Below are positions 47,223 to 60,071 of a stretch of DNA of 64,000 nucleotides, one piece after another; position 1 is the stretch's first letter; each line of letters opens with the position of its first letter. The stretch spans positions 1 through 64,000 of the forward strand of contig NHNW01000040.1 of NCBI GenBank assembly GCA_002786025.1, read 5' to 3'. The translations under genes and the position numbers were made by a program. This stretch comes from Zasmidium citrigriseum. Lineage: Eukaryota > Ascomycota > Dothideomycetes > Mycosphaerellales > Mycosphaerellaceae. Under the pieces are notes generated by a model. It was not told where the DNA came from. It did no database searches and worked only from the letters and a program-made list of their open reading frames with translations.

Positions 47223-47250
47223 CATGTGAAAATCAACTAGCGCGCCAAGC
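47223..47250 (+). promoter_or_regulatory. Shared 2EXR promoter block (CATGTGAAAA ... TAGCGCGCCAAGC)
   Basis: CATGTGAAAA at 47223-47232 is followed by TAGCGCGCCAAGC at 47238-47250, in the direction of the gene starting at 47451 (228 bases downstream). The same CATGTGAAAG-type box stands upstream of four array genes in the same orientation relative to each gene. The 13-base TAGCGCGCCAAGC recurs exactly at 52536-52548. The role is inferred. Confidence 0.5.
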
Positions 47251-47450: not shown

Positions 47451-48311
47451 ATGCCTGACATCGGCGAACTCACCCTGAGCGGCCTTCTGTATGAGGGCAA
47501 TCTCGAGGAATGGCGTCCAAGAATGCTCGCATGCCTCGGCATCAACGAATGTCGAGTATGGATCCAACCAGACGACCCGGCGAACGAAACATCTTCGAAA
47601 GCTGCTTCTATCATTCGCTCCATGACGAGCCCTGCGATGTTGCGGCGTGTACTAGATGAGCACCGAGACCATTCCGGCAAGCTTCTTGAGAGCTTGCGAA
47701 ACCTGGCCACTCCATTCCGGCTACTTGACCTCCCTGCTGAAATTCGAGACATCATCTACGATATGCTCTTCTTCCCTGGATACCTGAGAATATTCGAACC
47801 CGGAGCGAGGAACTTTCAGAGTTGCAGCCCAGACCCAATTCCCAAGATCATGCACGTCAACTCCCAGATTCGACAAGAAGCGGCCTACATGCTCTACAGT
47901 AGCCGAGAAATGGATATTCTCCTTCACTCGGGCAACCTCTTGCCTGCAAACTACTCCGAATCCCACAGTACCCTCACCCGTTGGTCACAAGCGGTGGTCG
48001 GTGAGTACGTCAAGCACTTGAGGCAGATACTGCTGTGGCTCAGCGACCAATCCATGATTCGAATCGAGTTCGCACATTGTCGGCTGAGACTGTCCTTCCA
48101 TTGCGAGTATCCTTATCCCTGGAGGGTCCAATGGCTCAGCGAAGACGGTTGTCGACTGCTAAAGCAGCATGAAGAGAAGATTGAATCGATTCGAGAGACA
48201 CAGAGTCTGAAAGGCGAGGGAACGATCTTGGCACTTCTTGAGGACTGGCAGCTCTGGTGGCGGCTCGCTCAGGAGATCAAGGGGACAGATGATGAGGAAG
48301 AGGAGACTTGA
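47451..48311 (+). CDS. 2EXR-like (F-box-like) protein, left member of a duplicated pair
   Basis: A single exon of 286 residues. An N-terminal block (LSGLLYEGNLEEWRPRMLACL) and SPAMLRRVLDEHRDHSGKLLESL precede the 2EXR-type core LDLPAEIRDIIYDMLF; then come HVNSQIRQEAAYMLY and a helical end with LLEDWQLWWRL. The gene starting at 50135 repeats this layout block by block, so the two are paralogs. An alpha/beta hydrolase gene lies between them. Function unknown: probably an adaptor or recognition protein, by analogy with F-box-like proteins. Confidence 0.75.
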   Translation: MPDIGELTLSGLLYEGNLEEWRPRMLACLGINECRVWIQPDDPANETSSKAASIIRSMTSPAMLRRVLDEHRDHSGKLLESLRNLATPFRLLDLPAEIRDIIYDMLFFPGYLRIFEPGARNFQSCSPDPIPKIMHVNSQIRQEAAYMLYSSREMDILLHSGNLLPANYSESHSTLTRWSQAVVGEYVKHLRQILLWLSDQSMIRIEFAHCRLRLSFHCEYPYPWRVQWLSEDGCRLLKQHEEKIESIRETQSLKGEGTILALLEDWQLWWRLAQEIKGTDDEEEET

Positions 48312-50134: not shown

Positions 50135-51058
50135 ATGCCAATGCTGTTAACCCACCCTCCGTCACCCGAGTCCACTCTCGGCGACCTTACCGCCAGCGGC
50201 GATCTCTACGAAGGCAACTTCCACGAATGGCGGCCCCGACTGCTATGCTCACTGCGACTGCGCGACCTGTCCAACTTTGCCGACCCGAACTTCTTCATCA
50301 CAAGAATCGGCTCGCGGACTACCAAGCAAGCGGCCGATCAGACCTGCGGCATGATCAGTCCTGCATTGCTGCGGCGCATACCAGATGAGACCAAGGAGCA
50401 TTGCGGCAAGCTCATGAAGGCCCTGATGAGGTTTGCGACACCATTTCGATTGAAGGACTTGCCTGTGGAGGTCAGAGGGAGGATATACAAGTTGCTCACA
50501 CCCACAACCTGGGGTACCACCGGAAAGCTACCAACATGCTTCAAGATCAGCTCTCGAATCCAAGAAGAAGCACTGCCTGTATTCTATGCCAACACAAAGA
50601 TCATTGTCAGGTTGCAAGCAAAGACGTACTACTGGCACTATGACTATGACGACTGGCACGAGGCCAACATGAAGATACACAATCAATTGACGAAGTGGTC
50701 CAAATCCGTGCTGGCGGACAACGCAAAACATTTGAGATCGCTGGACCTCTGGATCAGTGATGGATGTAAGGTGGAGTTCAGATTGCAAAGTGGAACTCTG
50801 GATCTCATTTTCAAAGGAGACTCGCTCAACAGAAGGAATAATTTCCAAGACAGGCTTGACAGGCATGTGGGTGAGATCGAGCGGATCAGCAATATCGTCA
50901 GTCTCACGGGACAGTCGCTCATTCTGGCATTGCTCTGGAATTGGGAGCTCTGGACCGACTTGATGGATGAGCTTGTCATGGAGCTGCCTGCGGAGCAATA
51001 TTACGACAAGAGCGATGATGAAGAGAGGTCTGATGATGAGGCTTGGTCATCAGCATGA
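50135..51058 (+). CDS. 2EXR-like (F-box-like) protein, right member of a duplicated pair
   Basis: A single exon; starting at 50135 it encodes 307 residues. It mirrors the gene at 47451: LTASGDLYEGNFHEWRPRLLCSL, SPALLRRIPDETKEHCGKLMKAL, ATPFRLKDLPVEVRGRIYKLL, a long helical middle, and an end with LLWNWELW and an acidic tail (KSDDEERSDDEA). The frame is open far upstream, but the ATG at 50135 matches where its paralog's conserved N-terminus begins. I could not find the CATGTGAAAG box in its promoter. Function unknown. Confidence 0.75.
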   Translation: MPMLLTHPPSPESTLGDLTASGDLYEGNFHEWRPRLLCSLRLRDLSNFADPNFFITRIGSRTTKQAADQTCGMISPALLRRIPDETKEHCGKLMKALMRFATPFRLKDLPVEVRGRIYKLLTPTTWGTTGKLPTCFKISSRIQEEALPVFYANTKIIVRLQAKTYYWHYDYDDWHEANMKIHNQLTKWSKSVLADNAKHLRSLDLWISDGCKVEFRLQSGTLDLIFKGDSLNRRNNFQDRLDRHVGEIERISNIVSLTGQSLILALLWNWELWTDLMDELVMELPAEQYYDKSDDEERSDDEAWSSA

Positions 51059-51317: not shown

Positions 51318-52070
51318 TCAGTGGTATGCTACCGGAATAGCAAATGTATGAATCAACTTCAGCAAAGCCGACTCTGGCTCCTGGCGAAAGACCTCCATAT
51401 CCATCGAGCCCAGCATGCATTTCGTCTTAACCACTTGTCCATTGACCACACTGCGAAAATGCTCTCGCAGGAAGTCTACCTGGTATAGGCTCATGCCGAA
51501 TTGATTTTCCACGGTCCACATATCCAAGACCGTATGCATTCGCTCCAAGCCGCCCTGACCGAAGTCGAGCAGCACGACGATATCGCCCCTTAAGTCCAAC
51601 ATGATCTCCATGTCCCAGAGCTGCAACACGATGCGCGGAAGACTCGACACCACCTCTTTCGGGCGGCTTGCAATCCATTGTGCCGCACTGCCCGCCGCAG
51701 CCACGACCCTTGGGCGTTGCACACCTTCGGTAACGACACGCAGCATGAAGGTATTCGAAGCATATGCGAGCTTGAGGGTGTCGTCGCGGAGCTGACGGCA
51801 GACCTGAGTGAGGCCAAACAGACGTCTGAAAGGGCGACGGCGCTGAACCGAATGGCAGTTGTGTTTCTTGTTGTCGTTGTCTTGAATGGTGATGTCCTCG
51901 GCGCTGCCGGTGTTGAAGATGCGGTCGTGGGGGAGGGCGAGGTCGTAGATCTCATTGCGAATCTCAGCGGGGAGTCTGAGGAACGGTTGTTGTTTGTTGT
52001 CGGACTCGCGCTGTTGGCGGCTGGCCTCGAGGCTCTGTGTCAGCGGCGGCGACTTGTTTGGGCGCTCCAT
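51318..52070 (-). CDS. 2EXR-domain protein, array member 1
   Basis: A single coding exon of 250 residues. FLRLPAEIRNEIYDLALP is the 2EXR signature, then FNTGSAEDI, LTQVCRQLRDDTLKLAYASNTFMLRV, WIASRPKEVVSSLPRIVLQLW and a C-terminal LLKLIHTF. The ATG at 52070 stands in CAGATG. A 53-base predicted 5'-UTR intron (52071-52123, donor GTATAC, TTACAG acceptor) ends exactly there. Upstream is a CATGTGAAAG box. This member lacks the C-terminal cysteines seen in its neighbours. Unknown function; protein-protein adaptor suspected. Confidence 0.8.
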   Translation of the reverse strand: MERPNKSPPLTQSLEASRQQRESDNKQQPFLRLPAEIRNEIYDLALPHDRIFNTGSAEDITIQDNDNKKHNCHSVQRRRPFRRLFGLTQVCRQLRDDTLKLAYASNTFMLRVVTEGVQRPRVVAAAGSAAQWIASRPKEVVSSLPRIVLQLWDMEIMLDLRGDIVVLLDFGQGGLERMHTVLDMWTVENQFGMSLYQVDFLREHFRSVVNGQVVKTKCMLGSMDMEVFRQEPESALLKLIHTFAIPVAYH

Positions 52071-52246
52071 CTGTAAGATTCGTGTCAGTTCATGGCGGTG
52101 GAGGATGTGTGCGAGGGGTATACCTTGCACGTGCGCGACCCGAAATTTTGGAGCTTTCGTTGGTGTTGTAAGGTATTTGCAGTGTAAGAAACGGAAGGAA
52201 GCATGACGAAGTTTAAGAAGGAACACGTGCCAAGACACTAGCTCAG

Positions 52247-52256
52247 CTTTCACATG
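52247..52256 (-). promoter_or_regulatory. CATGTGAAAG box of array member 1
   Basis: In the gene's direction CATGTGAAAG is followed by CTGAGCTAGTGTCTTGGC. It is about 186 bases upstream of the ATG. It matches the box upstream of members 2 and 3 exactly. Confidence 0.5.
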
Positions 52257-52436
52257 CGCGCGACTTCTTGCTCATCTCTGGGACAGGACTCCGGAAGTCA
52301 TATTTGAAGCTAATTGGACAACTGTCTAATCGAGCGACGGGGCTGTTTGATCATTCAACCGTCGATACTGTGACGCGGAGTGCGCATATGCAACCATCAA
52401 CTCCAGATGAAGTTGTGACACAAGAACGATGCATAC

Positions 52437-52561
52437 CTTTCGCGAAGTCGGCTGACCGTTGTTTCTTGTTGCGGCGTTTGTGATGTGTGACGATGAAAGG
52501 AAAGACGGAACTTCGCAAAGCTGGAAGGAACTGGATAGCGCGCCAAGCCACTTGTCACATG
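52437..52561 (-). pseudogene. Orphan promoter and leader of a 2EXR-type gene without coding body
   Basis: In the minus direction CATGTGACAAG (box at 52555-52561) is followed by TGGCTTGGCGCGCTA, a pyrimidine-rich leader and a leader-exon end CGCGAAAG|GTATGC with donor at 52436. The leader is about 125 bases, close to that of member 1 (about 133). No CAGATG and no 2EXR coding sequence follow; downstream is short non-coding DNA up to member 1. It looks like the remaining 5' end of a lost paralog, though an unrecognised alternative promoter for member 1 is possible. Confidence 0.45.
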
Positions 52562-52662
52562 CAAACAAACGCTGGTGACTGACTGACTCCGCACCAAGCC
52601 GCGTGTCGTTCCAACTTCGAGATCTGAAGAGTATCAAGCTTAGCCTTTCAATGTCTCTCATT

Positions 52663-53547
52663 TCAATCCCCTGGGTCCTGCGATCTACAATGATCCAGCG
52701 ACTCGTACAACAGGAAAGCATTCTGCTCTTCTCCTATGCTAAAACAGTTGCGAAAGGGCTGCACCAGCTCGAGTAGCTTCTCCCTAGTCTTTCTTCCCGA
52801 ACTTCCCACCTTGTCTCCTTTGATGAGCTCGTCGAAGTTGTTCTTCCTCTGACTCTCGATGACATTGCGACAGAATGGCGACATTGGATCCAGGAAACAG
52901 TCTGGCCTTCTGTCACCCACAGGCGGACAAGAACAGAATCCAGCACTCTTGGCGAACACCACGCTGGAAGTGCCCGCTTTGAGGTGAAATACAGCCATGT
53001 CGAATCCCCCATTCGTCCAAAGGCCACTTGGATCATGGTGCCAGACCAGCACGACTCGAGAGATGCGTGAAAGTGCTTCTGCTGGGCGGCTAAGGATCCA
53101 GGTATGTGCCGGTGCAGTCTTCCGAGAGCGTTGTGGGATCGACTTCGTGTGTTTCATCATCTTCATGTCGCTGTTTTTCGGAACGTGTAGCATGAAAATG
53201 TTGCTGCTATACACCATTGGAAGAGTCTCGTCCCGAATCTGCCGGCACACTTGAGTGATTGCAAACTTCTGCTTATGTGCCTCCTTTCGCTCAATGCTAG
53301 TGCAGGGATAGGTGACGCCATCCTTGATACCTTCAACGCGGGCACCATCGTAGAAGTCACGGAAGTCGGTGTTGAATAGCTCGTCTTGAGGAATCGCAAG
53401 TTCGTAGATCTCGTTGCGCAGCTCGCCTGGTAGCTTGAGCAGAGGCGAGTCTTCGTTCTCAACCTCACGATTTTGACGACACAGCTCTTGCTGTACTTGA
53501 TGGCGGTCTGGCTTCTTCGTCTTCGGCCGGGCGCTTGGGCGAGCCAT
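52663..53547 (-). CDS. 2EXR-domain protein, array member 2
   Basis: A single coding exon of 294 residues: a basic start (MARPSARPKTKKPDRHQ), LLKLPGELRNEIYELAIPQDELFNT, ITQVCRQIRDETLPMVYSSNIFMLHV, WILSRPAEALSRISRVVLVW, then FCSCPPVGDRRPDCF and LLELVQPFRNCF. The start codon is in CAGATG, preceded by a 58-base predicted 5'-UTR intron (53548-53605, donor GTATGT, branch GCTAAC, acceptor ACAG). The CATGTGAAAG box is upstream. Function unknown. Confidence 0.82.
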   Translation of the reverse strand: MARPSARPKTKKPDRHQVQQELCRQNREVENEDSPLLKLPGELRNEIYELAIPQDELFNTDFRDFYDGARVEGIKDGVTYPCTSIERKEAHKQKFAITQVCRQIRDETLPMVYSSNIFMLHVPKNSDMKMMKHTKSIPQRSRKTAPAHTWILSRPAEALSRISRVVLVWHHDPSGLWTNGGFDMAVFHLKAGTSSVVFAKSAGFCSCPPVGDRRPDCFLDPMSPFCRNVIESQRKNNFDELIKGDKVGSSGRKTREKLLELVQPFRNCFSIGEEQNAFLLYESLDHCRSQDPGD

Positions 53548-53754
53548 CTGTAGTCTGTATGTTAGCTTGAGTGGCGATGGGAAAGGCGACGCAAGATGAA
53601 CATACCTCGACCGAAGCTTGACCCGAAACGGTCACTTGCGGTGAAGTCGGGGTGTTTGGTGAGGGAGAGAAGAGAGAAGAGGAAACAGCGCCGAGAATTT
53701 TGGAAGGAGCAACCAAGCGTATCGGCCCGCACCGGACGCTAGCGCAGCATTCGA

Positions 53755-53764
53755 CTTTCACATG
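53755..53764 (-). promoter_or_regulatory. CATGTGAAAG box of array member 2
   Basis: CATGTGAAAG in the gene's direction, about 217 bases upstream of the ATG and followed by TCGAATGCTGCGCTAGCG. Nearly the same distance as in member 3. Confidence 0.5.
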
Positions 53765-53912
53765 TCAAAAAGCTGCCGCAGTGGCTCCTCAGTGACACTG
53801 AGTTGCAGGAGAGTGTGATGAAGTCTTGGATAAAAGTCCATTTGCATGCACATCGAAAGCAACTAGAAGAGTCTTGCAAGCTAAGCTAGACCATTTTGTC
53901 GGTCCCGCCCAT

Positions 53913-54758
53913 CTACCACACTCTGCCTTTGCAGCTGTCCCGAAATGCTTTGATCAGCTGGAGAAGCCTCTGTTCTGGTCCACCTGGGCCCACTGAGTTT
54001 CGAACAGTCTCTATGACTTCGTCAAAGACCTGCTTCCTGTTGCCGCCGTTCTCAAAACACTCCGGACAATTGATGTAAAGTCCCTGACTCTTGTTCACCA
54101 CCTTCTGGTACTCCTCGCACGAGACAATGTTTGCGAAGGACATTGGTCTGCCGGTTGCTGCCTCCATATCAAATAGCGCCATACGGCCCATCAGTATGCC
54201 CTGGGCGTGTCCTCTGCTGGAAGCTAGTCCCCAGTATTGGAGGACAATGCGGTTACAGCTGGACAAGGCCTTGGAAGGTCGGCTCATGATCCATCGCTCT
54301 GCTGAATCTTGTCCGTGTAGGACTTCCTCGTTCGAATGCTTTGCCTCAGGAGCCACAACACGTAGGAGAAAGATGTTTGACTTGTAGAATATTCCAAGGG
54401 TCTCCTTTCGCAGCTGGCGACAAACTTGAGTCATGCCGAACTCGCGCTTGCAGGCCTCTTGCTTGCGAATTGCGGTGCACTCATAGTGCTTGACCTCAGT
54501 ATGATCCTGGTCGTGTGTGGTGTCGCTCTCGTGCAGATACTTGTATCTAGCACTCGGTGTCCAGTCTTTGATGCCGACCTCATCCTCGCTCGCAGTGTTG
54601 AAAACTTCATCATACGGGATTGCGAAGTCGTAGATGCGATTGCGGAGCTCTCCAGGCAGCTTCAAGAAAGGCGCAGAGCTGTTGTCGGACTCACGCTGCT
54701 GACGACGAGCTTCATATTCGTGCTTGCCTGTGGGCTGCGGAATCTCGTCGTCACCCAT
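53913..54758 (-). CDS. 2EXR-domain protein, array member 3
   Basis: A single coding exon of 281 residues: FLKLPGELRNRIYDFAIPYDEVFNT, MTQVCRQLRKETLGIFYKSNIFLLRV, WIMSRPSKALSSCNRIVLQYW, then INCPECFENGG and LLQLIKAFRDSC. The ATG at 54758 stands in CAGATG; a 69-base predicted 5'-UTR intron (54759-54827, donor GTCAGT, acceptor TTCGCAG) ends at it. The in-frame upstream ATG at 54797 lies inside that intron and is rejected. Function unknown. Confidence 0.82.
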   Translation of the reverse strand: MGDDEIPQPTGKHEYEARRQQRESDNSSAPFLKLPGELRNRIYDFAIPYDEVFNTASEDEVGIKDWTPSARYKYLHESDTTHDQDHTEVKHYECTAIRKQEACKREFGMTQVCRQLRKETLGIFYKSNIFLLRVVAPEAKHSNEEVLHGQDSAERWIMSRPSKALSSCNRIVLQYWGLASSRGHAQGILMGRMALFDMEAATGRPMSFANIVSCEEYQKVVNKSQGLYINCPECFENGGNRKQVFDEVIETVRNSVGPGGPEQRLLQLIKAFRDSCKGRVW

Positions 54759-54964
54759 CTGCGAAAAAAGTGTCAGTGCGACGGGGAAGAAAGGCACCTG
54801 GGCAGCAAGTAATGATGAAGAACTGACCTCGAATGGAGACCGATGATGTAGCGCGAGAGTTGTTTGCGGTGCGCAAAGTGATGAAGAGAGGAAAGAGCTG
54901 ATGGAGTTTGGAAAGGCCGCGTTTGCCTAGCCCGGATCTAGTCGGCTTTAGCGCATTGACCGCA

Positions 54965-54974
54965 CTTTCACATG
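54965..54974 (-). promoter_or_regulatory. CATGTGAAAG box of array member 3
   Basis: CATGTGAAAG in the gene's direction, about 216 bases upstream of the ATG and followed by TGCGGTCAATGCGCTAAAGC. Flanks also resemble member 2. Confidence 0.5.
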
Positions 54975-55128
54975 GCAAAAACATCCAAACTCTACTCTCA
55001 ACATATCGGGCATCGATGGAGGTAAATATGATTGCAACAACAACATACGGGAAGTGCTGATACGGATTCCACTGGGACTTTTCAGATTATCGACGGCTAC
55101 CTCCCTGGCCCAGAATCTCATGCGTCAT

Positions 55129-55953
55129 TCACTCCTTCTCCTTCTCCTTCGACGGACACTCAACCCGCTCACGAAACATCCGCAGAAGCTCAATCAACTT
55201 CTTCCTCGACACCGTCTCTTCTCCAGTATTCTTGCCCACCTGCAAGACATCCTCAAAATCCAGCCCCCTCTCCTTCAAATAGCACCAACACTTATAGCTC
55301 AACGTCGTCCTCTCACAAAAGCACTTCTTAAGATTATGATGATCGACCTCCAGAAAATTAAACTTCCCCCTGACAAGATCAAAAAGAACGACATCCGCGC
55401 CCGTGAAATTGCACGCCCCGCCCCACGGCCACATGACAATGATCCGAGACAGACTCGCCAGAGCGTCGTCTGGGAGACTCTTGATCCATTCTTTGGGCGC
55501 CTTAGCGTCTATGTGCCGTCGATGGGCATTTATCGAGGCTCGCTCATAGACATTCATCCGTCGATAAGGATTTCGCCGTGGATATGCACCATGCCCGTAA
55601 CGGCCGCCTTCCCCACTGGGTCCCACGATGCGCAGGAGAAAAGCGTTCTTCCCGTAGAAGAATTTGCGGCTTTCGACGCGGAGCTGGCGACAAGTCTGTG
55701 CAAGGGCGAAGTACTGGCCGTGGGCTTTGCGTTTCTTGATGCTCCGGGTTCGGTGTGTGATACCCTTTGTGATGCCTTTGATGCCAAGGTTGTCGATGCT
55801 GTCGACGCTGAAGACTTGGTCATTAGGGATGAGGTATGTGTAGATGTGATTGCGGAGTTCGCCGGGGAGACTGAGAAGAAGAGAGTCTTGGTCTTGGGTT
55901 TCGGTTTCTTGGAAGATGCTGTAGGGGTTGTGGATGGGGTTGCGTGGGCGCAT
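55129..55953 (-). CDS. 2EXR-domain protein, array member 4
   Basis: A single coding exon of 274 residues: LLLSLPGELRNHIYTYLIPNDQVFSVDS, LAQTCRQLRVESRKFFYGKNAFLLRI, WIKSLPDDALASLSRIIVMWPW, then CFCERTTLSYKCWCYL and LIELLRMFRERV. The ATG at 55953 is again in CAGATG. The frame extends upstream to 56016, but homology begins at 55953. Unlike its neighbours I see no GT donor for a 5'-UTR intron, and its promoter box is correspondingly closer to the ATG. Function unknown. Confidence 0.8.
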   Translation of the reverse strand: MRPRNPIHNPYSIFQETETQDQDSLLLSLPGELRNHIYTYLIPNDQVFSVDSIDNLGIKGITKGITHRTRSIKKRKAHGQYFALAQTCRQLRVESRKFFYGKNAFLLRIVGPSGEGGRYGHGAYPRRNPYRRMNVYERASINAHRRHIDAKAPKEWIKSLPDDALASLSRIIVMWPWGGACNFTGADVVLFDLVRGKFNFLEVDHHNLKKCFCERTTLSYKCWCYLKERGLDFEDVLQVGKNTGEETVSRKKLIELLRMFRERVECPSKEKEKE

Positions 55954-56077
55954 CTGGACGAGTCTGATGCTGTTGAGAGGGAAGTCTGGCTTGGACGGCC
56001 TGAGGAAGTAGCTCAAGGAAAGTTGTCTTCGGAACGGTGGGAATTATCAATGGCTTGATGCCAAGCCGCTAGTGTTC

Positions 56078-56087
56078 TTATCACATG
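56078..56087 (-). promoter_or_regulatory. CATGTGATAA box of array member 4
   Basis: CATGTGATAA in the gene's direction, about 134 bases upstream of the ATG, followed by GAACACTAGCGGCTTGGC. This resembles member 1's CTAGTGTCTTGGC block. Confidence 0.4.
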
Positions 56088-56480
56088 CGATCGAACATAG
56101 AAGCTTCGCAAACATTGAACTGCGTCAAAGCCAATTCGCAAAGACTTTGTAGGCTTTCATTTGCAAGATATGAGTTGCATTGACAGCGTCGAGGAGAAGT
56201 TTCCTTCCTTTGCCATTGCTCAAGAACACCCATTTCTAACCTCTCAAGGACAAAACGACCCTTTTCCATTGGCAAACTTGCGTATAGGGTAACTCTTTCA
56301 ATCGCAGGAATCTTCTCTACGTACTGGTCTTCCGCTCAAGCTTGAAGACATGCACATTGGTCCCCGAATTTGCCGCCGAGCGTCGAGAGTGCGTCGAGAC
56401 CTTCAAGCGTTCGGCGTTCTGGTCCTGTCCGGGGAGAGCCAATCCCCAAGTTTGACCGGGACATTGAGAGCAGGATACGT
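56088..56480. other. Intergenic DNA
   Basis: No gene seen; it lies between the promoter of array member 4 and the stop codon of member 5. Confidence 0.35.
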
Positions 56481-57494
56481 CTAGGAATCGGCGTCAGACC
56501 GACTCCCAAGCACAAAGCTCTCTCGAAACGCCTCAATCAGCCTCTCAAGCCTCTCACGCCTCCCGTCCTCCGCTCCTATGTCCTTCAACACACCAGCAAG
56601 GTCATCATAGCTTGTCTTCATCTCAGGGCAAAAACAATCAATGTCGTACGCGATCACTTCCCCAGCCCAATTGCGGCCATACTTCAAGTACTCACAAGGG
56701 CAGCGCAGCCGCCACGGACGACTCCAATTCTCCCGCACCGAAAGTGGCCTACAATTCCCATCCTCCAGGTCGAAAAGCGCGAGGTTGGACCTTAGGTGGA
56801 GGCCATCTGAGTAGAGAGTTGAGGGATGCCAGACCAGGACCACCCGCGTGAGGTTTGCGAGAGCCTCGGGCGGGCGAGTCGTCATCCAGTTTTCTAGCGT
56901 CGCTCTCAGCCTCTTGTTGAACTCTGGCGGCCCCCGCACGTGCAGCATGAAAATGTTGTCAGTGTACAAGAGGGGTAGAGTTTCTTCCCGGAGTCGATGG
57001 CAGACTTGTGTGATAGCGAAGTGTTCTTGATAGGGCTGCTTCTTTCTAATGCTGATGCAGCGAAGGATGTTGTCATCGTAGTCGCTGTCGTCGTCGTCGT
57101 CCTCGTCGTCGTTATTGATGCTGTTCTCGTATGTGCCGTCATGTTCAGTACTCCAGTCTTCGATAGCACACTCATCGACATCGTAGTGATTGAAGTCGTT
57201 GCTCTCGATGTCCTGGTCTTCGACGCCATCGTCTCCGGGGCCGTCGATGGCAGTGTCATCGTCGTGAATCTCCTCATCGGCGAAACCATCGATGCTGATA
57301 TCGTCGTCGTAGCCTGTATTGAACAGTTTCCCCTTCGGGAGGGCGAGGTCATAAATCCTATTGCGAATCTCACCGGGGAGCTTCAGAAATGGGCAATCCT
57401 CGTTCTCCATCTCGAAGTACTGCAGCCGCATCGTCTCTTGAATAAGACGCTGGCTTGGCTTTTTTGGTCGCGAGCGGAAGTTCGGACGAGGCAT
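56481..57494 (-). CDS. 2EXR-domain protein, array member 5, with large acidic insert
   Basis: A single coding exon of 337 residues: a basic start (MPRPNFRSRPKKPSQR), FLKLPGEIRNRIYDLALPKGKLFNT, then an Asp/Glu/Asn-rich insert of about 80 residues, then ITQVCHRLREETLPLLYTDNIFMLHV, WMTTRPPEALANLTRVVLVW, RCPCEYLKYG, DCFCPEM and LERLIEAFRESF. The ATG is in CAGATG with a 56-base predicted 5'-UTR intron (57495-57550, donor GTATAC, acceptor GGCAG). The insert sits where other members have a short linker. Function unknown. Confidence 0.82.
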   Translation of the reverse strand: MPRPNFRSRPKKPSQRLIQETMRLQYFEMENEDCPFLKLPGEIRNRIYDLALPKGKLFNTGYDDDISIDGFADEEIHDDDTAIDGPGDDGVEDQDIESNDFNHYDVDECAIEDWSTEHDGTYENSINNDDEDDDDDSDYDDNILRCISIRKKQPYQEHFAITQVCHRLREETLPLLYTDNIFMLHVRGPPEFNKRLRATLENWMTTRPPEALANLTRVVLVWHPSTLYSDGLHLRSNLALFDLEDGNCRPLSVRENWSRPWRLRCPCEYLKYGRNWAGEVIAYDIDCFCPEMKTSYDDLAGVLKDIGAEDGRRERLERLIEAFRESFVLGSRSDADS

Positions 57495-57792
57495 CTGCCT
57501 GTAACATCAGTGTCGTATGCAGAGACAGTGCGGAGGTGGGATCAGTATACCTTGAATGGGGTTTGGAAGCCGTTATGTGTGTTGGTGATTGTTGATGTTG
57601 TAGGTTGGAGAGAAGTAGGCAAGGAAAAGACGAAGATCACCAGGGTATTTGAAGGGTGAAATTCAATTTGATGCGGAGAACAGAATGAGGGCGGCCTTTC
57701 GAGCAACTTCCACCGACCCTGTACAATGATCAGTCTGGTCCTCGCGTTTGAACATGCTTAGCGTACCACCTCGTCGAATGATTGCCGTTGCC

Positions 57793-60071
57793 TCATTCAA
57801 GTACAATCTCAACCAACTCCCCCTCATCCCCAGCCCAAGCCTCCCCCATCATAATCCCATGCACATACGCCTCTCCAACAAACTCAAACCTCCCCTCCCC
57901 AAGCGGTCTCAGGACATAAGGTACGTAACCCCCGGCAAGCAACCACACCTCATCCCCCTCTCGTAACGTCTCAAATCCCATCCCAAGCCGCTGATCACTA
58001 GTAGAGAACATCCGGCGATGCGCTTCTCTTGCCTTGATCTTGGGAGTAAGGGAGACGAAGTCGGTGTAATCCTCACGGAACGCGAGGATGTCCTCTTCCT
58101 GGAAATAGCCGTCGGCTAGGATCTCCGGGTTTAGCGAAAGGTAGTGCTCTATGTCGGGGAAGATGTGGACGGCGTTTGGGTCTTTTTCTTGAAGGCGGCT
58201 GATTTTGGAGGCGAGCGCGCGGTATTGATGTTGTTGTTCTGCTGTCATGTTTTGGCCGGTGAGGAGCTCGGGCTGGAGAAGCGTGACGTAAAACAGGACG
58301 AGGAAGTATGCTGATATTTCTCCAGGCGGTCCGTATTGTCTTTGGTCCTGTTGGCTGTCGTACATGTTGTGGATCAAGGTCCTCCAGAAGGTCTCGGCGA
58401 GTGACTGACCAGGTGGTAGTTCAAGCTGCAGCAGAACATCCAGTCGCTCCGATAAGCCTTCCCACTCGCAGGCACTTGCCGATGTCTTGGCAACTCTCGC
58501 TACCCGTCCGCAGAACTTCCCCTTGACGGGTAGCAAATGCGATGTGGCGTGAGTTTCAATTGGGATGTACACACTGCCCTTCGTGGCGTCGAAGATCTTG
58601 GGACAGCGTGATAGATCTGGCTGGTATTCTAATGGTTGGGGTCGTCCATCGTAACGATCTAGGGACGAGTAATTCGGACACCATGAAGGGAGCTGCTGCG
58701 TAATAGTATCGGGAGCCTTCTGATGAGGATGTGCCGTGATGCTCAAGAAGTCAAGGGAACGTGACGCCTCAAGGTGCTGCCTAGTCGCTCGGATGTACGT
58801 AGCGCTAACTTGTTCGTTGTAGTCTGCGGCAAAGCCGGTCGAGAACTCATCAGCAATCGCCATGGAAGCGTATATCTTGTCTCTCGGGTCAGAGCAGTGA
58901 GTCGCTGGGTATGTATAGGCTTGCAACGACAGGAATGGGAAGCCTTTCCCTTGCTTCAGCCCCTGCTTGATATTGTAGATCAACGTAAACGGATGGGCGA
59001 GAAGGGTACGTGTGATGAAGTCGAAGCGGCTTGGCGAGTAGCGTTCCCTTAGCGGTGCACAGATGTCCACGCTCCAGAGGGTGATGTATGGCAAAACATT
59101 CAAGAAGGCGTCAGCCTCTAGCGCGGTCGTGCCACAGAGGCATATTGCGGGTTTGGCCACCAAGGCGATCTCCTGGATGACCTAGTTGACGTCAATGACG
59201 ACTCGCTAAGCAACATGAGTACCACTTGACTTACCCACGTTCTCGTGAACCACTCCCGGCACAGCAATTCGGTCAAATCGTACCATTGCTCTGTGGAAAG
59301 AGGAGCAATGCTGCAGCGCTGCCAAAAGCTCTCGTCATCAAAGGATTGCGGAGTGACCCTTTCTCCAGTCTTTCGGGCAGCCGCTCCAAGCCTCACAAGC
59401 TGGTCCAACACATGGAAACCGCTTCGACTGCGATTGTCATGACCTCCTAGCCAGGCCAATACAAGCTTGGCTCTACTGTAAATCTGACCCATGAACGAGA
59501 TCTGCTGATTGCGCTCATCGATATCGTCCTGGTTTATGCAAAGCTCGTCGATCCAGACGTGGATGGCCATTGACGTTTTCATCATCGACTGGAAGAGTTG
59601 CTGGTCCTGAGAGGTCGACCGCCATCCTCTAAGGTTTACCAGAGCGTCGCGGAGATTCCGTGTGACGTGCAAGAGCTTTGCTCCGCAATACACTGGATAG
59701 TATCTCGGGACCCTCGTGAAAATCTGCGCGGCGTCTCTCTCTTTGGCTTCCACAGTCGGAGGACCCCAAGTATAGGATAAAGCATCGAAAGGGAGGTCCT
59801 GTTCGGGATCAACGACATGCAGACTTATGACCAAGGGCTCATAAGGCGATGTCGTATAAGGGTAAATCTTCAGAAGTCGGATCGTGCGCGGTGGCAATTT
59901 CCTGTAGTCGAAAGGCTCTGGGACTCCATCACAGTCGTCCTCATCCTGCATTGAGGAGAGTTCGTGTCTTATCAGTTCGCGCTGTAACAGTGCTAGTTTT
60001 ATCATTGATGTGTCTGCTGGGCTGGACGTGTGCTCAAGATATTGCGGCAACTCGTCGAAAACGCCGTCCAT
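57793..60071 (-). CDS. HET-domain (heterokaryon incompatibility) protein
   Basis: HET domains trigger fungal cell death when partners differ at incompatibility loci. About 741 residues in two exons (intron 59182-59234). The three HET blocks are in order: FDALSYTWGPP, then VWIDELCINQDD with QIYSRAKLVLAWLG, then REWFTRTW joined by splicing to VIQEIALV. A long C-terminal region of about 450 residues has no recognised repeat or NACHT domain and ends in a wall of charged residues (GDEGELVEIVLE). An in-frame ATG at 60113 would add 14 residues. It sits directly upstream of the 2EXR array and points the same way. No incompatibility partner is evident. Confidence 0.9.

Follow-up and report, generated by a model that had tools for sequence, protein, structure and literature searches.

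Why should five neighbouring genes of a fungus have, at every start codon, a CAG placed directly before the ATG and, in four of them, a common promoter word? The genes lie in the window analysed here, 64,000 nt of contig NHNW01000040.1 of Zasmidium citrigriseum (genome 44.4 Mb in 148 contigs; this contig is C84 in our numbering), where they form an array of five minus-strand open reading frames (ORFs) of 250-337 amino acids, arranged head to tail at 51318-57494. They belong to the 2EXR proteins (PF20150), a family with at least 89 matches in this genome, many of them clustered. The original prediction called the array a recently amplified, co-regulated family, perhaps an adaptor or recognition set. 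We recovered all five ORFs and found CAG before each of the five ATGs. The observation is thereby confirmed and the inference drawn from it is half right: the genes are probably co-regulated as a subset, and they are not recent.

Four of the five array promoters share with several other 2EXR subfamilies an oriented proximal module, consisting of an E-box-like CATGTGA(AAG) followed, a few to about 24 bases on, by a word resembling CTAGCGC or GCGCTA; in many cases GCCAAG or CTTGGC is present as well. Judged by its sequence and position, this shared promoter is very probably a real regulatory signal. The reading that we prefer, and to which we give an even chance, is that the array belongs to an old tandem 2EXR cluster under birth-and-death evolution and would include a co-regulated subset of F-box-like adaptor genes. 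The promoter part of this reading is well supported; the adaptor function we infer.

The array and its promoter module

The five array genes, all on the minus strand, are as follows.

51318..52070, minus strand: 2EXR gene 1, ORF of 250 amino acids; PF20150 31.1 bits, above the cut-off
52663..53547, minus strand: 2EXR gene 2, ORF of 294 amino acids; DUF7730 29.7 bits, above the cut-off, and 2EXR 23.7 bits, below it
53913..54758, minus strand: 2EXR gene 3, ORF of 281 amino acids; PF20150 26.0 bits, above the cut-off
55129..55953, minus strand: 2EXR gene 4, ORF of 274 amino acids; below both Pfam cut-offs, no leader intron found
56481..57494, minus strand: 2EXR gene 5, ORF of 337 amino acids; DUF7730 28.6 bits, above the cut-off, no CATGTGA found within 600 bases upstream

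The curated cut-offs are 24.8 bits for PF20150 (whole protein) and 27 bits for DUF7730 (PF24864). Genes 4 and 5 score 19.2 and 22.8 bits against PF20150, and genes 1, 3 and 4 score 23.4-25.2 bits against DUF7730. All five proteins match the 2EXR core and can be aligned with each other. The predicted order of their shared motifs holds, and the consensus is looser than had been written: in gene 1, LPGE(L/I)RNxIY takes the form LPAEIRNEIY, gene 3 is the only one with an exact CRQLRxET, and gene 2 the only one with an exact SRPxEAL.

Upstream of the start codons, genes 1, 2 and 3 carry CATGTGAAAG at -186, -217 and -216, as predicted, and gene 4 has the variant CATGTGATAAG at -134. The modules of the array are located as follows (a slash marks a splice site).

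52228..52256, minus strand: promoter module of gene 1, CATGTGAAAG..GCTAGTG..CTTGGCA, outside the strict pattern
53740..53764, minus strand: composite promoter of gene 2, CATGTGAAAG...GCGCTA, from the composite pattern search
54949..54974, minus strand: composite promoter of gene 3, CATGTGAAAG...GCGCTA, from the composite pattern search
56059..56087, minus strand: promoter module of gene 4, CATGTGATAAG..CACTAGCGGCTTGGCA, outside the strict pattern
52437..52561, minus strand: orphan composite promoter and leader exon with donor AAAG/GTATGC, for which no ORF of its own was found

The orphan copy, overlooked in the original prediction, lies between genes 1 and 2 and reads composite, pyrimidine-rich stretch, donor. 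It could be what remains of a lost sixth gene, or else serve gene 1 as an alternative first exon, spliced to the acceptor at the ATG.

Within the window, CATGTGAAAG with one mismatch has eight matches, a number reached in 17 of 100 shuffles and thus within chance; the case therefore rests on the position of the motif and on whole-genome counts. Across the genome there are 535 CATGTGAAAG sites against 70 for the reversed word, and 7136 CATGTGA sites against 2522. This enrichment rules out CATGTGAAAG as a motif of 2EXR genes only. When 30 of its sites were fetched, a sense frame of at least 110 amino acids started 100-350 bases downstream in ten, compared with four at the mirror position, so CATGTGAAAG looks like a general promoter word. 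Word counting brought up the further words GCGCTAGT and CGCTAGT. We defined a strict composite as CATGTGA followed within 2-24 bases by the CTAGCGC or GCGCTA form. The pattern CATGTGAN{2,24}CTAGCGC has 38 sites against none reversed, the GCGCTAGT form 17 against one, and CATGTGAN{4,16}GCGCTA 46 against nine; all forms together make 87 distinct sites. CATGTGAAAG is thus the core of a sharper composite, the second word of which had escaped the original prediction and is found in both orientations. Among the papers listed, and judged by title, none dealt with fungal CATGTGA promoters or with CTTTCACATG in fungi, and those listed on F-box expansions or on F-box in Zasmidium offered nothing on this module.

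Some composite sites stand out by their arrangement. One locus (L064, G000 C72:382500-386300) has four CATGTGACGATGAC modules on one strand within 3.8 kb, most of them followed by a CTAGCG-like word, with a fifth CATGTGA on the opposite strand and an AT-rich, TATA-like stretch after the first two modules; it contains no ORF over 113 amino acids and has no Rfam match. One 36-base composite sequence occurs three times (G000 C58:783119, C135:31306 and C136:84100) and is perhaps a dispersed repeat. Near C84:273.2 kb, in a second 2EXR locus of the array's contig (L052), a minus-strand 2EXR composite promoter stands head to head with a plus-strand 2EXR promoter.

Genes downstream of the module

We compared 39 2EXR ORFs with 57 other ORFs of at least 200 amino acids from the same loci. 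CATGTGA is found in sense in the 500 bases before 16 of the 39 and three of the 57, a difference in the direction that the original prediction would have it; expressed as density, this is 17 per 18,993 bases at 2EXR ORFs and 3 per 25,895 at the others. A relaxed composite precedes ten of the 39 2EXR ORFs and none of the 57 others. Around 59 LPxELR matches, exact CATGTGAAAG lies upstream in sense in seven cases and in antisense in one, and CATGTGA within 800 bases upstream 31 times in sense and 10 times in antisense (some of these upstream stretches overlap).

Of the 87 composites, thirteen are followed in sense, at a distance of up to 1 kb, by a 2EXR Pfam match or an LPxELR ORF. Sites shifted by 2-20 kb averaged 1.18 such cases and reached 6 at most in 2000 runs; flipping the strand of the sites left one. 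With Pfam 2EXR matches alone there are nine composites, compared with a shifted mean of 0.71, and none of 2000 runs reached nine. The 13 are distributed over C84 (seven, one of them the orphan copy before gene 1), C94 (five) and C46 (one), and the 2EXR genes that bear the module are spread over several separate groups of the tree. What marks a regulon, an oriented cis-element shared upstream of its members beyond chance, was thus found for a subset of 2EXR genes.

The module is not exclusive to 2EXR genes, which are its commonest neighbour among the families tested (2EXR, F-box, BTB and HET). No composite lies within 2 kb before any of 150 scored HET matches (of 282 candidates). Composites were also seen upstream of an F-box-like gene (L025) and, twice in one locus (L063), before tandem genes that look F-box-like by eye. 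Nine further composite loci, picked from the CTAGCGC-form list blind to their content, included a BTB-like ORF (19.4 bits, cut-off 20.5) and a 2EXR-like ORF below its cut-off.

A number of results weigh against a 2EXR regulon. A strict composite was found at just nine of the 89 Pfam 2EXR matches, all on C84 and C94, so the module marks a subset. The ORF comparison took in 49 of the 89 places, a sample that leans to clusters, and the other 40 have no strict composite within 1 kb. Gene 4 is outside the 39 2EXR ORFs, since its place was taken by a longer ORF in antisense, which entered the 57 others instead; these controls may include internal exons and are weaker for it. For 72 of the 87 composites, the 1 kb downstream contains no match to 2EXR and none to Pfam F-box or Pfam BTB (70 if the L063 pair is counted as F-box-like). 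Only one composite precedes a Pfam F-box match and one a Pfam BTB match, the L063 proteins have no Pfam F-box match, and F-box matches lie downstream of three of the 100 first-listed CATGTGAAAG sites, which makes the F-box link weak. The remaining blind loci contained an RRM gene, an ArAE_2 transporter, a DnaJ-like frame (L067, by eye) and, in four cases, no clear gene; at L064 and L065 no clear gene was found downstream of the composite.

Several neighbouring and related genes deserve mention. A second 2EXR subfamily (N-terminus LYEGN..EW), overlooked in the original prediction, adjoins the array.

47451..48311, plus strand: second-subfamily 2EXR gene, 286 amino acids (ORF, tree)
47223..47243, plus strand: composite promoter, CTAGCGC form, of the gene at 47451, at -228
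50135..51058, plus strand: second-subfamily 2EXR-like gene, 307 amino acids (ORF, tree), without a Pfam match at E<=1

For the last of these, no CATGTGA lies on the plus strand from 47230 up to the gene start, which is another point against the regulon. On the other side of the array, a HET-domain gene (59118-60071, minus strand) has CATGTGATAG 82 bases upstream. Elsewhere, six tandem paralogues at G000 C54:555-575 kb look F-box-like by eye, and two of them have a composite promoter. BTB matches, of which some have internal stops, cluster at G000 C105:907-911 kb and at C61:1523-1544 kb; a composite site precedes one of the C105 matches by 331 bases.

Leader introns and the age of the array

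Introns ending exactly at the ATG had been predicted for genes 1, 2, 3 and 5.

52071..52123, minus strand: predicted leader intron of gene 1, 53 bases, AAG/GTATAC...CTGAC...CAG/ATG, by donor/branch/acceptor pattern
53548..53605, minus strand: predicted leader intron of gene 2, 58 bases, GAG/GTATGT...CTAAC...CAG/ATG, by pattern; alternative acceptor 7 bases before the ATG
54759..54827, minus strand: predicted leader intron of gene 3, 69 bases, GAG/GTCAGT...CTGAC...CAG/ATG, by eye
57495..57550, minus strand: predicted leader intron of gene 5, 56 bases, AAG/GTATAC...CTGAT...CAG/ATG, by pattern; alternative acceptor 4 bases before the ATG

All four predicted introns were recovered. The second acceptors in genes 2 and 5 make splicing exactly at the ATG uncertain for both; gene 2 has an 88-base option as well. 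Gene 3 failed the pattern because its donor is GTCAGT. A branch word CTRAY lies 16-18 bases from the intron end in genes 1, 2 and 5. The pattern ending at the ATG is matched by three of the five window genes and by all three of their sisters in the L052 locus; these six introns measure 53, 58, 56, 56, 56 and 61 bases, with CTRAY/YTRAY 16-21 bases from the end. In the DNA examined, 18 of 149 CAGATG words pass a lax intron pattern (2EXR starts counted in). The leader-intron pattern is present at six of 39 2EXR starts, compared with none of 54 other ORF starts; five of the six belong to the array clade, and the sixth, L056, does not.

Gene 4 differs. Its CATGTGA lies 134 bases from the ATG, within one base of the distance in gene 1 minus the intron (186-53=133), which fits intron loss from an exon ending in AG; its CAG/ATG may thus have an origin other than that in the remaining array genes. 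An indirect hint comes from Zasmidium cellare, where the gene model PRZ48_009501 fuses two units exactly at the Met of the second, a join resembling what a gene predictor would do if an acceptor stood just before the ATG.

The eight CAG/ATG genes of C84, five in the window and three in L052, all fall within one 11-row clade (support 99/95) of a tree that we built from 55 2EXR ORFs of the window and of the fetched loci; the other three rows of the clade have long branches. Seven of the eight have a predicted leader intron (gene 3 counted by eye), and the start contexts of 2EXR genes in other subfamilies mostly differ. The leader intron seems to have been passed down within one clade and not to belong to the regulatory code, because other subfamilies carry the promoter module without it. 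This assignment is blurred by three of the 11 rows, which are without the trait, by two genes outside the clade (L056_1518 and L043_1275) that also have CAG before the ATG, the former passing the intron pattern, and by the long branches of the tree in general.

As to age, the array proteins are 26-39% identical to gene 1, and gene 2 reaches at most 42%. The three L052 sisters (C84:273-277 kb) lie about 220 kb from the array and are interleaved with its genes in the tree: two of these distant genes are the closest group to gene 1 (99/94), and gene 2 pairs with gene 5 (94/84). The duplications thus seem to predate the separation into two clusters, and we reject a recent tandem amplification, as originally predicted, on the low identity to gene 1 and the grouping of gene 1 with distant genes. 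The Kre33/NAT10 protein of the window is 94% identical to its counterpart in Z. cellare ATCC 36951, which places the fungus close to that member of the Mycosphaerellaceae; in the best-scoring database relative of the array proteins in a word-based search, PRZ48_009501, the two units share 34-37% identity with gene 2 and 34-35% with gene 3. The natural reading is that the array has diverged fast, or turned over, relative to Z. cellare, the relative being known by best score and not as an orthologue.

The leaders have diverged as well. Three of 36 leader pairs (genes 1-4, genes 2-3 and gene 2-L052_7690) aligned better than all of 200 shuffles, each narrowly, and three more were marginal; these shuffles preserve base composition only, which tempers the result. 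In all three best pairs the aligned piece is the module, and outside it the leaders have diverged beyond easy alignment. On this ground we reject a simple carry-over of whole leaders as the source of the module. Regulation seems to outlast protein identity here, as the leaders align in the module alone while the proteins are about one-third identical.

Function, alternative explanations and known systems

An F-box-like adaptor is the single most likely function of the array proteins, at a probability that we would put a little short of even. In each of the five, the profile PF13013 (F-box-like_2) picks out the same core, with E-values of 0.0005-0.014; it also matches 13 of the 16 members of an alignment (A2) of the five with 11 relatives (best E 9.4e-10). 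Set against this are the scores of the array proteins, 15.9-20.5 bits and all below the cut-off of 21.6, and the lack of any match at E<=1 to PF00646 and PF12937 for the five. Two structure models, themselves weak with a predicted local distance difference test (pLDDT) score of 65, gave no PDB match and no F-box among the matches listed. An adaptor or recognition set, as originally suggested, is therefore possible. No DUF7730 literature was found, and for 2EXR DPCfam alone looked relevant by title. The excerpted account of the origin of PF20150 (PMC9621593) describes an unsupervised cluster with two conserved ExR motifs, predicted by AlphaFold to be mostly unstructured; in that excerpt 2EXR is assigned neither a function nor a promoter signature.

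In the mechanism that we envisage, CATGTGA would be occupied by a basic helix-loop-helix (bHLH)-type factor and the second word by a partner, and the two would jointly switch on the subset. Transcription would start in the CT-rich stretch downstream of the module, and a short leader intron would be removed just before the ATG. The proteins would be substrate-recognition adaptors of the F-box kind, with LPxE(L/I)RNxIY as putative helix 1 and FxhTQVCRQLR as helices 2-3. A variable insert would separate the two, and the C-terminal part, which evolves fast, would bind the target.

Three other explanations have to be weighed. The 2EXR genes might have CATGTGAAAG simply as ordinary RNA polymerase II genes, if it is a general promoter element of the lineage. 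The genome-wide excess of CATGTGAAAG and CATGTGA and the frames downstream of the fetched sites speak for this, as do the 100 first-listed CATGTGAAAG sites, of which 99 lack a 2EXR Pfam match in the 1 kb that follows; we nevertheless think it rather unlikely, given that CATGTGA is denser upstream of 2EXR ORFs than of others and that the composite is enriched at 2EXR genes and was not found before the scored HET matches. Inheritance might do without selected co-regulation altogether, the promoters and leader introns having been copied with the tandem duplications and not yet decayed. Composites before 2EXR genes are indeed confined to C84, C94 and C46, where these genes form arrays, and the leader alignments beat their shuffles narrowly. 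Yet the module occurs in separate tree groups, and with proteins this divergent and leaders that exceed all shuffles in the module alone, unselected promoter words should be gone; nor is a second word in both orientations given by plain copying. We consider inheritance by itself improbable.

The remaining alternative concerns the proteins and leaves the promoter untouched: 2EXR proteins may not be ligase adaptors, their ExR motifs acting otherwise, for example in nucleic acid binding or in allorecognition beside HET genes. This is a serious contender, though we would not quite call it an even match. It agrees with the fold searches, in which no F-box was among the matches listed, with the excerpted description of PF20150 given above and with the HET gene at 59118 that adjoins the array, although HET genes are so many that this neighbour means little. 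PF13013 in most members of the wider alignment and scored HET genes without the composite argue the other way.

The co-regulated subset that we prefer can be extended to a bolder scheme, which we regard as a long shot. The lineage would possess an arsenal of rapidly evolving adaptors of ubiquitin ligases, encoded by 2EXR, F-box-like and BTB-like genes and defined by a common CATGTGA + CTAGCGC module, that serves as an intracellular layer of recognition or defence; in one clade the acceptor at the ATG would make the coding region a portable cassette for any upstream leader exon. Whatever the fate of this scheme, a module common to a 2EXR subset and some F-box-like and BTB-like genes offers a handle on a large family without assigned function, as it predicts which genes switch on together and hence for which condition and partners to look.

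Compared with known systems, the array proteins have the core of PF20150 and PF24864, LPxELRNxIY ... CRQLR, and genes 1 and 3 pass the former, genes 2 and 5 the latter; gene 4 differs in staying under both cut-offs. They share with F-box-like_2 proteins and SCF (Skp1-cullin-F-box) adaptors the region matched by PF13013 in all five, and UniRef names relatives in Z. cellare and Cryomyces minteri 'F-box domain-containing protein'; judged from sequence, they differ in a long variable insert that splits the would-be helices. Z. cellare PRZ48_009501 (P0001) has two units, both related to genes 2 and 3, but joins them in a single model of 512 amino acids, probably an annotation fusion of tandem genes. 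A more distant comparison is with the intracellular pathogen response of Caenorhabditis elegans (cul-6, skr, fbxa), described in the excerpts of PMC11238739 as a set of genes, F-box adaptors and SCF parts among them, that are induced together. That response belongs to another kingdom and was established by genetics, whereas ours is read from promoter sequence alone. If the array does encode a co-regulated, adaptor-like family, it would resemble the nematode response in kind, by analogy and not by kinship.

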